Positions 24,317 to 29,386 of a stretch of 40,138 nucleotides of DNA are shown here, piece by piece (position 1 is the stretch's first letter; every line of letters starts with the position of its first letter). The notes under the pieces are model-generated. The model made no database searches, was not told the origin of the DNA, and worked only from the letters and a program-made list of their open reading frames with translations. The stretch spans positions 1 through 40,138 of the forward strand of contig JBCDCH010000036.1 in NCBI GenBank assembly GCA_039182125.1, written 5' to 3'. This DNA is from Planctomycetota bacterium. Its GTDB lineage: Bacteria > Planctomycetota > Phycisphaerae > Tepidisphaerales > Tepidisphaeraceae. The translations under genes and the position numbers were made by a program.

Positions 24317-24736
24317 ATGCGAATCGAGACCGTCGACGTCGAACGCATCCGCGCCCTGCGGCACAAGGTGCTGCGTGCCGGCATGCCGATCGAGACGACG
24401 TATTTCACGGGCGATGAGCTGGCGACGCATTACGCGGCGCTCATCGACGGCGCGGTCGTTGGCTGCGTGTCGGCGCTGGTCGCGCCTTTTCCCGAGCACG
24501 ACGAACCGGCCGACCGGCAGCTGCGCGGCATGGCAACGGACCCAGTCCATCGTGGACGCGGCATCGGTGGCACGCTGGTCCGTACCTTGCTCGCCGACGC
24601 GCCCGGCCGGGTCTGGTGCAACGCCCGTATCGCGGCGGCCAACGTCTATCGCCGCGCCGGCTTCGAACAAATCGGTGAGCCGTTCGAGGTACCAATCTTC
24701 GGCACGCACTTGCGGATGCTGAACGTCAACGCTTGA
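24317..24736 (+). CDS. GNAT family N-acetyltransferase
   Basis: A 139-residue protein of GNAT fold. The acetyl-CoA pyrophosphate-binding motif A reads LRGMATDPVHRGRGIGGTLV, with the R-x-x-G-x-G core at RGRGIG, and a later ANVYRRAGFEQIGEPFEV segment matches motif B. It transfers an acetyl group from acetyl-CoA to an unknown amine. The start ATG 24317 is 2 nt after the mutL stop, suggesting one transcript. Its last 11 nt overlap the convergent repeat-protein gene. Confidence 0.88.
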   Translation: MRIETVDVERIRALRHKVLRAGMPIETTYFTGDELATHYAALIDGAVVGCVSALVAPFPEHDEPADRQLRGMATDPVHRGRGIGGTLVRTLLADAPGRVWCNARIAAANVYRRAGFEQIGEPFEVPIFGTHLRMLNVNA

Positions 24737-25566: not shown

Positions 25567-26340
25567 ATGGTGTTTACCGTGGCGGACGATTCATCGCAAC
25601 CAACACGACCGGTCGATGGGAGCGCCGCAACCGCCGACGTACCCGACGCGGGTGTGCTGGTGATCGACAAGCCGCTGGGCGTTTCGTCGGCGCGGATCGT
25701 CGCACGGGTCAAGGGCATCGCACGATCGGCCGGTGCGGCCAAGCGCTACAAGGTCGGCCACGCCGGCACGCTCGACCCCGCCGCGACGGGTGTGTTGGTG
25801 CTCCTGCTCGGCAAGGCGACCAAGCAATGCGAACGGATGATGGGCCTGCCCAAGACTTACCGAACGACGGTCCGCCTCGGCGCGACGACACCGACCGACG
25901 ACGCCGAAGGCGAGCCGACCCCCTGGCCCGACGCGATGCCGCCGACCTTGCAGGACATTCATGGCGTATTGACTCGGTTCACCGGCACCTTCGAGCAAAC
26001 ACCGCCGCAGTTCAGTGCCGTGAAAGTTGGCGGTCGACGCGCCTATGCCGCGGCCCGCTCAGGCGAAACCGTGGAGATCGAGCCGAAGACCGTTCGCTGT
26101 GATCGGCTCGAACTCGTGCGGTACGACTGGCCCGATCTCGTGCTGGAAATGGACACCGGACGCGGATTTTACGTTCGTTCACTCGCCCGGGACCTGGGTA
26201 CCGTGCTCAACGTCGGCGGGTACCTCACCGCGCTACGCCGCACGGCCGCCGGGCCTTTTAGCGTCGACAACGCGGTCGACATCGAAACGCTCGACCGTGA
26301 CGGCATCTCCGCCCACTTATTCCACGAGGTGCCCGCATGA
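25567..26340 (+). CDS. truB: tRNA pseudouridine(55) synthase
   Basis: TruB makes pseudouridine 55 in the T-loop of most tRNAs. The catalytic Asp70 lies in KVGHAGTLDPAATGVL, preceded by GVLVIDKPLGVSS and followed by KTYRTTVRLGATTPTDD, QFSAVKVGGRRAY and GRGFYVRSLARDLG, all family hallmarks. The length is 257 residues. ATG 25567 is used; an upstream TTG and a downstream GTG at 25579 are possible. About 28 residues precede the conserved core, longer than usual. The stop overlaps the plsC start (ATGA). Confidence 0.93.
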   Translation: MVFTVADDSSQPTRPVDGSAATADVPDAGVLVIDKPLGVSSARIVARVKGIARSAGAAKRYKVGHAGTLDPAATGVLVLLLGKATKQCERMMGLPKTYRTTVRLGATTPTDDAEGEPTPWPDAMPPTLQDIHGVLTRFTGTFEQTPPQFSAVKVGGRRAYAAARSGETVEIEPKTVRCDRLELVRYDWPDLVLEMDTGRGFYVRSLARDLGTVLNVGGYLTALRRTAAGPFSVDNAVDIETLDRDGISAHLFHEVPA

Positions 26341-26993
26341 CCCAGCCGGCACGCGACTGGTCCGGGCCGTTCGATACACGGGTGGACGTGCGCGTGATGA
26401 TGGGGCTCAACCGCTTCTTCACGCGGTTCTGGCATCGCAGCCGAGTGGTTCGCCCGGCACCTCGGCTACCCGACGGGCCGTTCCTCGTCACGCCCAACCA
26501 CATCAGCGGGCTCGACCCCGCGCTGGTGCAAAGCGCGGTCCCCCGGCCGATCGTGTGGATGATGACGGCGGAGTACTACGACGTGGCGTGGCTGCGTCCG
26601 TTCCTGAGACGCGTGGAAGCGATCCGCGTCGACAAGGAGATCAATGACAGCAGCGCGATCCGTGCCGCACTGGGAGCGCTCAAAGCGGGCCGAGTCGTGG
26701 GCATTTTTCCTGAGGGTCGCTTGCAGGAGCGGCGCGAACTTCGACCGCTGCAGCCGGGTGCCGTCGTGCTGGCGGCACGGTCAGGCGTGCCAATGCTTCC
26801 GGTCTGGGTGGATGGGCCGATGCGGAGCCACATTCATCGCAAGACGAACATGCTCAAGGCGTATCTCACGCCCCACCGTTGTCGGCTGGCCGTCGGCGAT
26901 TTCATCCCGGCCCCGCCACGGCGTTGCGACCCGGAGCCGACGCTCGAAACCCTCCGTGCCGCCTTGGACGGGCTTCACACGCTCTGCCGCTAA
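26337..26993 (+). CDS. plsC: 1-acyl-sn-glycerol-3-phosphate acyltransferase family protein
   Basis: A 218-residue acyltransferase. The catalytic NHxxxxD block is NHISGLD (54-60, His55 and Asp60), and the substrate-binding block is FPEGR (124-128), continuing LQERREL. PlsC adds the second acyl chain in phosphatidic acid synthesis; other glycerolipid acyltransferases share these motifs, so the exact acceptor is inferred. The ATG overlaps the truB stop by 4 nt, so the two are translated together. It is the last gene before a 413-nt spacer. Confidence 0.88.
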   Translation: MTQPARDWSGPFDTRVDVRVMMGLNRFFTRFWHRSRVVRPAPRLPDGPFLVTPNHISGLDPALVQSAVPRPIVWMMTAEYYDVAWLRPFLRRVEAIRVDKEINDSSAIRAALGALKAGRVVGIFPEGRLQERRELRPLQPGAVVLAARSGVPMLPVWVDGPMRSHIHRKTNMLKAYLTPHRCRLAVGDFIPAPPRRCDPEPTLETLRAALDGLHTLCR

Positions 26994-27199: not shown

Positions 27200-27227
27200 T
27201 TGACGAGCCTATTTGCGAAGCTAAGAT
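27200..27227 (+). promoter_or_regulatory. Sigma-70-like promoter inside the plsC/HIT spacer
   Basis: TTGACG (27200-27205) is one base from the consensus -35 box, and TAAGAT (27222-27227) matches four of six -10 positions, with 16 nt between. Transcription would start near 27234 and run toward the terminator at 27330-27365, with no coding gene between. No expression data were available. Confidence 0.4.
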
Positions 27228-27233
27228 AAGACA

Positions 27234-27365
27234 GGCAAGATAGAGAAAATGGCTCGGGCGGCAGGCAGATAGGCAAATCGAAACATCGGGGACTGCGCAC
27301 CCCACCCACGGCGCATTTTCTCCCCTCCGGAAGACACCGACCCTCACGGGCGGTGTCTTCTTTTT
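27234..27365 (+). ncRNA. Candidate small RNA of about 130 nt
   Basis: The interval lies between a promoter-like sequence and a strong intrinsic terminator, with no coding frame that looks real. GAGAAAATG (27243-27251) and CATTTTCTC (27314-27322) are exact reverse complements and would close a 60-nt domain. Inside, GCAG (27261-27264) can pair with CTGC (27293-27296). The terminator hairpin forms the 3' end. I could not match it to tmRNA, SRP RNA, RNase P RNA, 6S RNA or a known riboswitch. The alternative is a structured 3' end of the truB-plsC message. Confidence 0.4.
27330..27365 (+). terminator. Rho-independent terminator
   Basis: GAAGACACCG (27330-27339) pairs exactly with CGGTGTCTTC (27351-27360). 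CCC and GGG inside the loop extend the stem, and five T residues follow at 27361-27365. The orientation is plus only; the reverse strand lacks a T run. It is the clearest intrinsic terminator in the window. It ends either the truB-plsC transcript or the candidate small RNA and protects the convergent HIT gene. Confidence 0.88.
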
Positions 27366-27406: not shown

Positions 27407-27748
27407 TTACCCCGGCGGCCAGTCGAACGGCCGGCCGGCGAGTACATGCAGATGGAGATGAAACACCGTCTGCCCCGCTACCGAGCCGCAGTTGAACACG
27501 GTGCGGAAATCCGCCTCGCCCCGCTCGGCCATCAACTGCTTGGCGACGAGGAACAGGTGCCCGACAAGCCCAGCATCCTCGGGCGACAGATCATTGAGCG
27601 TCGGGATCACCTTTCGCGGAACCACCAGCAAATGCACCGGTGCCTGCGGCGCGATGTCGGCGAACGCGACGCAATGCTCGTCCTCATGAATCAGGTCGGC
27701 GGGAATGTCGCCGGCAATGATCTTTTCAAAAAGTGTTGGTTCGGCCAC
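27407..27748 (-). CDS. HIT family nucleotide-binding protein (HinT-like)
   Basis: A 113-residue histidine-triad protein, the typical size of HinT phosphoramidate hydrolases. The triad reads FHLHLHV with His97, His99 and His101; His99 should be the nucleophile. The N-terminal TLFEKIIAGDIPADLIHEDE and middle HLLVVPRKVIPTLNDL match the branch. The start is GTG 27748 (MAEPTLFEK); further upstream the frame runs into the permease promoter region. It is divergent from the permease gene by 34 nt and convergent with plsC. HinT hydrolyses adenosine phosphoramidates; the cell role is unclear in most bacteria. Confidence 0.9.
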   Translation of the reverse strand: MAEPTLFEKIIAGDIPADLIHEDEHCVAFADIAPQAPVHLLVVPRKVIPTLNDLSPEDAGLVGHLFLVAKQLMAERGEADFRTVFNCGSVAGQTVFHLHLHVLAGRPFDWPPG

Positions 27749-27782
27749 GGCGCTAGCATCGCACACCGGGCCGATTGTTTCC

Positions 27783-29084
27783 ATGCTCAACTTCGTCACC
27801 GAAAACGTCCGCGTCGGCCTGAAAAATCTGGCCCTGCACAAGCTCCGTTCGCTCCTGACGGCGCTTGGCATCATCTGCGGCGTCATGGCGGTCATCATCA
27901 TGGTCGCCATCGGACAGGGAGCGAAGCAAGCCGCCCGTGAGCAGATGGAGCAGCTCGGCGCGACCAACATCCTCGTCCGCTCGACCCGCCCGCCCGAGTC
28001 CACCGACGCCGGCAGCAGCCAGCGTGTGCCGATCTATGGCATCACGCAGGACGATATCGACTTGCTCGAAACCATGCCGAACATCAAGGCGATCGTGCCG
28101 CTGCGCGACGTCAAGCAAGGCGTGCTCAAGAACGATCAGGTGATGCGGGTCAACACGATCGCCACCACGCCTGACATCTTCGACGTCGTCAGCCTGCAAC
28201 TGCAACGCGGGTCGGCGTTCGACTGGAGCCAGTACGAGGAGAACGCGCGGGTCTGTGTCCTCGGGGCCGACGCGGCCAAACAGCTCTTTCCATTCTCCGA
28301 TCCGATCGATCAGACGGTGCAGGTGGGCGTGACGGGCGTGGGAACGCTCGTGCTGACCGTCGTCGGCGTGCTCGAGCCGACGGGACTGCGAGCCGGTGCC
28401 GAGGCGTCGAACATCATCGACCGTGAGATCGACCGCGACATCTACTTCCCGCTCTCGCTCGCCGACCAGACCTACGGGCCGCAGCTCAACTGGCGTGACC
28501 AAGGCGCGTTGAAGATGGAGCAGGTCGCCCGCCATGAGGTCTGGCTACAGACCGAGGGCATCGAATACGTCGAACCGACCAGTTCGATGACCGCCCACGC
28601 GCTCGGCCTACCGGATCGTCTCGATTTGCAAGTCAAGGCACCCATCCAGCTTCTCCGAGCGGCCGAGCAGGAAGAACGCAAGTTCAATTTCATCATGGGC
28701 TCGATCGCCGGCATCTCGCTGGTCGTCGGCGGCATCGGCATCATGAACATCATGCTCGCCAGCGTCACCGAACGCACCAAGGAGATCGGCATCCGCCGGG
28801 CGCTCGGTGCCAAGCAGAAGCACATCACGCTCCAGTTTCTGATCGAAACGGTGATGATCAGCGCGATCGGCGGACTGCTCGGCATCGCGGTCGGCGTGGG
28901 CGGGGCGCTGGCACTGCCGTGGATCGTCGCAAGGTTCTTCGACGGCTCGCAACCGACCGCCGTGACACTGTGGTCGGTCGTGCTCAGCTTCAGCGTCAGC
29001 GGGCTCACCGGGTTGCTCGCGGGCCTGTACCCGGCCATCCAGGCCGCCCGGCTCAACCCGATCGAAGCCCTCCGTCGCGAGTAA
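27783..29084 (+). CDS. MacB/FtsX-type ABC transporter permease
   Basis: A 433-residue permease with one N-terminal membrane helix (LTALGIICGVMAVIIMVAIG, about 27-46), a large extracytoplasmic domain (about 50-310), and three C-terminal helices within the FtsX domain (around ISLVVGGIGIMNIMLASV, ISAIGGLLGIAVGVGGALAL and SVVLSFSVSGLTGLLAGLYP). The segment ERTKEIGIRRALGAKQKHI is the characteristic FtsX-family cytoplasmic loop, and the protein ends in AARLNPIEALRRE. These proteins act as mechanotransmitters with an ATPase (MacB type) to export macrolides, lipoproteins or peptides. No ATPase gene is next to it, so its partner lies elsewhere. ATG 27783 gives the canonical N-terminus. Confidence 0.88.
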   Translation: MLNFVTENVRVGLKNLALHKLRSLLTALGIICGVMAVIIMVAIGQGAKQAAREQMEQLGATNILVRSTRPPESTDAGSSQRVPIYGITQDDIDLLETMPNIKAIVPLRDVKQGVLKNDQVMRVNTIATTPDIFDVVSLQLQRGSAFDWSQYEENARVCVLGADAAKQLFPFSDPIDQTVQVGVTGVGTLVLTVVGVLEPTGLRAGAEASNIIDREIDRDIYFPLSLADQTYGPQLNWRDQGALKMEQVARHEVWLQTEGIEYVEPTSSMTAHALGLPDRLDLQVKAPIQLLRAAEQEERKFNFIMGSIAGISLVVGGIGIMNIMLASVTERTKEIGIRRALGAKQKHITLQFLIETVMISAIGGLLGIAVGVGGALALPWIVARFFDGSQPTAVTLWSVVLSFSVSGLTGLLAGLYPAIQAARLNPIEALRRE

Positions 29085-29188: not shown

Positions 29189-29386
29189 ATGTTCGCAGCC
29201 CTTTGGAACAACCGAACGCAACCGTCACAAACGCAGGAGGTTAACACCGAAGCGGACTATGTGCCGTGCATGTTCATTTTCGGGCTGGCGGCCGGTTTTT
29301 TCACGGCGCTCGCGACCGGATCCCTCGTCTTCGCCGCCGGCGGCTGCGTCGTCGGGGCGATCATCGGGTTGGCGCTGGCCGACTGA
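29189..29386 (+). CDS. Small glycine-rich membrane protein
   Basis: A 65-residue protein, MFAALWNNRTQPSQTQ then a polar stretch, followed by one or two tightly packed hydrophobic segments (about 29-62) rich in Gly and Ala (GLAAGFFTALATGSLVFAAG, then GCVVGAIIGLALAD). The Gly spacing resembles a glycine zipper, which packs helices in membranes. No family was recognised. It has a good AGGAG ribosome site. Its last 26 nt overlap the convergent PhoD-like gene. It follows the permease by 104 nt on the same strand. Confidence 0.55.
   Translation: MFAALWNNRTQPSQTQEVNTEADYVPCMFIFGLAAGFFTALATGSLVFAAGGCVVGAIIGLALAD

Follow-up and report, generated by a model that had tools for sequence, protein, structure and literature searches.

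An intergenic element of a planctomycete genome is almost certainly a conserved RNA gene, and it defines a new class-wide family of small RNAs (sRNAs) of the Phycisphaerae that is absent from Rfam 15 and of a functional kind already known. We consider it likely that the element specifies a trans-acting, Hfq-independent anti-Shine-Dalgarno sRNA with its own promoter and terminator. The window, by which we mean the whole stretch of 40,138 nucleotides that was analyzed, contains the following features at this locus:

26337-26993, plus strand: plsC-like acyltransferase gene, the 5′ neighbor of the sRNA (Pfam PF01553, E 2.6e-21)
27200-27227, plus strand: sigma-70-type promoter of the sRNA, TTGACG-N16-TAAGAT (9/12 matches; promoters of relatives)
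27234-27365, plus strand: predicted sRNA transcript of ~132 nt (start placed from the promoter)
27234-27293, plus strand: species-specific 5′ extension, present in the window and absent in relatives
27294-27315, plus strand: small hairpin P1, 27294-27298 with 27311-27315, UGCGC/GCGCA (predicted folds)
27316-27328, plus strand: nearly invariant single-stranded stretch UUUUCUCCCCUCC, the proposed anti-Shine-Dalgarno seed (alignments, predicted ensembles)
27329-27365, plus strand: intrinsic terminator, a 14-bp stem with one bulge and a U-rich tail (folding, covariation)
27407-28003, minus strand: ORF with a convergent HIT-domain gene, whose true start lies inside the ORF (Pfam PF01230, E 5.7e-24)

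The initial annotation had placed an unassigned small RNA in the only large convergent spacer of the window, and its coordinates are correct: the ends of plsC (26993) and of the HIT ORF (27407) are 413 nt apart. The spacer is indeed the only one of its kind in the window, since an acetyltransferase-like ORF (24317-24736) and a short ORF (29189-29386) close the other wide convergent gaps. The near-consensus promoter that had been reported ahead of the element is present at 27200-27227. Matches of this quality (9/12) are expected 0.3 times in the 1.6-kb region, and the window promoter gains weight from its relatives, because a promoter with at least 9/12 matches lies upstream of the element in 14 of the 21 loci of the host's family (window included), compared with 3.1 expected from shuffles. 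The distance from the end of the promoter to the C-rich stretch is usually 32-42 nt in the family loci, 62 nt in the closest relative (L002) and 88 nt in the window. In that relative, the promoter TTGACA-16-TATGAT is followed by a matching GGCAAGAT start. The predicted fold of the whole 132-nt RNA is better than that of shuffled sequences (z -3.3).

A same-strand plsC gene lies 5′ of the element in 16/21 family loci (window included), as might be expected if the element belonged to the plsC transcript as its 3′ end, be it a terminator or an sRNA derived from the 3′ UTR, and had no gene of its own. In five family loci, however, the element occurs without an adjoining plsC, and flanking genes in the rest of the class were found in any orientation, as judged from crude ORF calls; about half of the loci in the host's family have a convergent HIT gene 3′ of the element. 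The element's own promoter, conserved in relatives, and its changing neighbors make a plain plsC terminator unlikely, and a terminator has no need of the invariant single-stranded stretch. We therefore regard an origin from the plsC transcript as quite improbable. The occurrence of downstream genes in either orientation also excludes the element as the leader of one gene.

A strong intrinsic terminator had been called in the spacer, and folding together with a strongly covarying stem bears this out. The hairpin itself spans 27329-27361 and is followed by the U-rich tail; a consensus terminator scanner missed it, whereas folding reveals it. Across 92 sequences, 95% of the cells of the helix are paired. 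Double changes were observed in 10 of 13 pairs, with 148 such cells, a level reached in 0/500 shuffles; such controls exaggerate significance when the sequences are related, but sliding the pairing partner abolished the signal, and the number of different pair types agrees with covariation as well.

The same type of analysis bears on a cis-acting attenuator, in which the UUUUC arm and GAAAA would form an antiterminator that controls read-through into the downstream gene. Most members could form such a pairing, between [C/U]UUUC and GAAA[G/A], but it does not covary (5.68 bp vs. 5.62 bp in shuffles, with 350 of 1000 shuffles as high), and downstream genes lie either way, the next gene in the window being convergent. 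The attenuator is largely refuted by the want of covariation in the antiterminator, and we consider it very unlikely.

Upstream of the C-rich stretch, members of the host's family carry a small GCGC...GCGC hairpin, which can be recognized in most rows of the family alignment. P1 is its counterpart in the window, where the pairing is kept but the loop is larger than in family members. Each RNA carries one C-rich stretch, placed between hairpin and terminator. TTTTCT and CCCTCCGGA show no variation in 24 aligned sequences from several families, and the C-rich core is kept across 92 sequences. The seed of the relatives is mostly unpaired in predicted ensembles (mean unpaired probability 0.43-0.98). 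A conserved unpaired seed, as is characteristic of trans-encoded base-pairing sRNAs, is thus predicted for the family; it is partly hidden in the window, where the predicted full-length fold prefers a structure in which the 5′ extension covers the U-rich half of the seed.

A 9-bp long-range helix between 27243-27251 and 27314-27322 (GAGAAAATG/CATTTTCTC) had originally been taken as a hallmark of the RNA. GAGAAAATG can pair with and mask positions 27314-27322, and it can do so in the window's species only. The helix is formable, but it covers the invariant stretch and failed the check for conservation that the initial annotation itself had set, as no relative's sequence has it. As a conserved core it was rejected: it is missing in relatives, and helices of at least 9 bp (G-U allowed) arise in 49% of shuffled 5′ parts. 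The call was thus right but its hallmark, the long-range helix, was wrong: the conserved parts are the C-rich stretch at 27316-27328 and the terminator.

A DNA search of 61 genomes recovered the 3′ half of the element (27308-27365) from about 20 members of the host's family, with 82-95% identity; outside that family, three genomes had a recognizable TTTTCTCCCCTCCGGAAAAC and a terminator. The adjacent plsC proteins in the same loci are only about 40% identical, which argues that the short stretch is under much stronger constraint. A covariance model built on the 3′ half detected the element in 21 of the 26 genomes of the host's family and, with a class cut-off of E up to 0.01, in 174/298 class genomes, about 140 of them below E = 1e-6. 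Genomes carry up to three good copies, with two or three in several (e.g., G141 and G262). The three paralogous copies of G141 (L143, L144 and L145) share the same core and differ in their 5′ parts and promoters. In the window's own genome (L107), a possible second, diverged sRNA lies on the minus strand of contig C8 (53411-53477; E 3e-8), with the related pyrimidine stretch GCATTTTCTCTCCTTCCCATGC and a different strong terminator. Candidates on contigs C9 and C17 were rejected as second copies, as they are without a terminator.

The family appears to be confined to the class. In a draw of 294 genomes from the phylum, matches outside the class fell only between E 1.7e-5 and 0.01, and those inspected were ordinary terminators or chance matches in which the C-rich stretch and the terminator never occurred together; their rate is therefore that of the background. 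Matches from a pattern scan of named genomes were mostly from Phycisphaerae, Phycisphaerales, Sedimentisphaerales and unspecified Planctomycetota, and those from other phyla nearly all came without a terminator. One record titled Alphaproteobacteria (L272) has both element and terminator, and is likely a mis-binned planctomycete contig.

That the RNA is unassigned was borne out by covariance-model searches, in which the window, and the element in 20 class members, scored below the gathering threshold of every one of the 4227 families of Rfam 15; no description of the family was found among the papers searched. Several observations support its designation as an independent small RNA: it is conserved across the class while its neighborhoods change, its promoter is conserved, its terminator covaries, and it lacks coding potential. 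As far as sequence-based evidence goes, the element is an independent intergenic gene with its own promoter and intrinsic terminator, as is typical of trans-encoded base-pairing sRNAs.

The reverse complement of UUUUCUCCCCUCC is GGAGGGGAGAAAA, a textbook strong ribosome-binding site, and the sRNA probably acts by pairing with Shine-Dalgarno sequences. Transcribed as a stand-alone gene from its promoter at 27200-27227 to the terminator at 27329-27365, the RNA would hold out UUUUCUCCCCUCC between the small 5′ hairpin and the terminator. Through this stretch the RNA would pair with several mRNAs at their G-rich Shine-Dalgarno sequences and keep ribosomes from entering, with no need of Hfq. The 5′ extension of the window's species may act as a restraint, folding back on the seed until it is opened by a target or factor. 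Hfq was detected in 0/26 genomes of the family, with positive controls in E. coli and B. subtilis, which places the RNA outside the Hfq-dependent class of sRNAs. The mean energy of seed pairing was -7.7 kcal/mol at gene starts vs. -4.7 kcal/mol inside genes (95 ORFs of the window's genome), a consistency check only, because the starts were chosen by Shine-Dalgarno strength and any anti-Shine-Dalgarno sequence shows the same. Apart from the sRNA gene itself, near-perfect GGAGGGGAGAAAATG sites did not recur among the 26 genomes, and a single conserved mRNA target with an extended or near-perfect match was rejected for the same reason. The sRNA therefore more likely has many short, weakly distinguished targets than a single dedicated one.

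The invariant stretch might just as well bind a protein. An sRNA of this type would use its pyrimidine tract to bind or titrate not mRNAs but an RNA-binding protein, such as ribosomal protein S1 or an unknown chaperone. Such a role would fit a tract that is nearly invariant over the whole class, tighter than many mRNA-pairing seeds, in a family in whose 26 genomes neither a single conserved mRNA target nor Hfq was found. The complement of the tract, however, is an almost ideal ribosome-binding site, and there is one motif per RNA, whereas titrating RNAs usually carry repeated motifs. Overall, we judge a protein-binding sRNA rather unlikely. A different use of the complement would be a short peptide encoded on the minus strand, with GGAGGGGAGAAAATG as its ribosome-binding site and start. 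In the host's family the reverse complement does read as an excellent ribosome-binding site followed by ATG, but the frames that open there vary in length between 3 and 109 codons and encode no conserved peptide, the ATG is missing in other families, and the T-run ending marks the plus strand. The absence of a conserved frame refutes this proposal, to which we attach next to no credence.

Outside the host's family, the putative anti-Shine-Dalgarno sRNA may be under a different type of control. In other families of the class, a box of the form TAAAG-N15-17-GCCGATAA that resembles sigma-28 promoters is found near the C-rich stretch; such boxes occur upstream of the element in L087, L088, L110, L112, L122, L128, L159 and others. 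In one group, 30 of 57 members have a GCCGA-type box 20-39 nt before the C-rich stretch, and no other 20-nt bin holds more than 9. A similar box (e.g., CTTAAGTT...TCGATAAT) accompanies flagellin genes in these same genomes, with a spacing about 2 nt shorter than in the sRNA box. Roughly half of the loci of the host's family have a GCCGAT box at a distance of about 100-130 nt upstream; none is evident in the window. Co-occurrence of the sRNA with FliA is uninformative, because FliA is present in 280/298 class genomes. Three genomes (G095, G159 and G282) combine the sRNA and a match to a FliA/WhiG-class sigma factor with no flagellin match, and their sigma factor may serve another program. We treat the sigma-28-like box as a lead to a possible regulatory link. 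A broader proposal, in which a class-wide family of Hfq-independent anti-Shine-Dalgarno sRNAs is driven by sigma-28-type factors in several families and the 5′ extension in the window is a built-in off switch, is speculative and in our view improbable. If true, sigma-28-type control would tie a flagellar or WhiG-like program to direct translational repression of many mRNAs.

A 2022 Rfam-based survey listed only 8 distinct sRNA families in the Planctomycetes-Verrucomicrobia-Chlamydiae group (PMC9029176). A class-wide family with a fixed anti-Shine-Dalgarno-like stretch, in genomes with no Hfq, gives the study of post-transcriptional control in Planctomycetota a concrete starting point, and the covariance model can be used directly for annotating Phycisphaerae genomes.

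The best sub-threshold Rfam match, the Pseudomonas rnk leader (RF01772), resembles the element in its terminator-like hairpin and was dismissed as chance (19.1 bits vs. a gathering score of 55, E 0.76). Closer parallels are found among sRNAs with C-rich motifs. NfeR1, of the alpha-r14 sRNAs of Sinorhizobium meliloti, folds into three hairpins, and each of them presents CCUCCUCCC in an unpaired region (PMC10746234). The Phycisphaerae sRNA shares with it a conserved unpaired C-rich anti-Shine-Dalgarno stretch (CCUCCUCCC there, CUCCCCUCC here; PMC10746234). Both are trans-encoded genes in which the motif is highly conserved and the rest variable. In contrast to the three motif-bearing hairpins that characterize alpha-r14/NfeR1, the Phycisphaerae RNA has one C-rich stretch, between hairpin and terminator; it also differs in belonging to another phylum, in having no Rfam match and no Hfq in its genomes, and in that its targets are putative. 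A second parallel is RoxS of B. subtilis, which is conserved in S. aureus and there called RsaE; the Rfam model for RoxS/RsaE did not match in the window or in the 20 class members. The demonstrated mode of action of RoxS and other such sRNAs is the pairing of single-stranded C-rich regions with G-rich Shine-Dalgarno sequences in several mRNAs (PMC10433868). The Phycisphaerae sRNA likewise has a single-stranded C-rich region suited to such pairing, which is predicted here, although it has one such region where RoxS has three (PMC10433868). Kinship to either RNA is supported by no test, yet the mechanism that best fits the family would be a mode of action like that of NfeR1 and RoxS.
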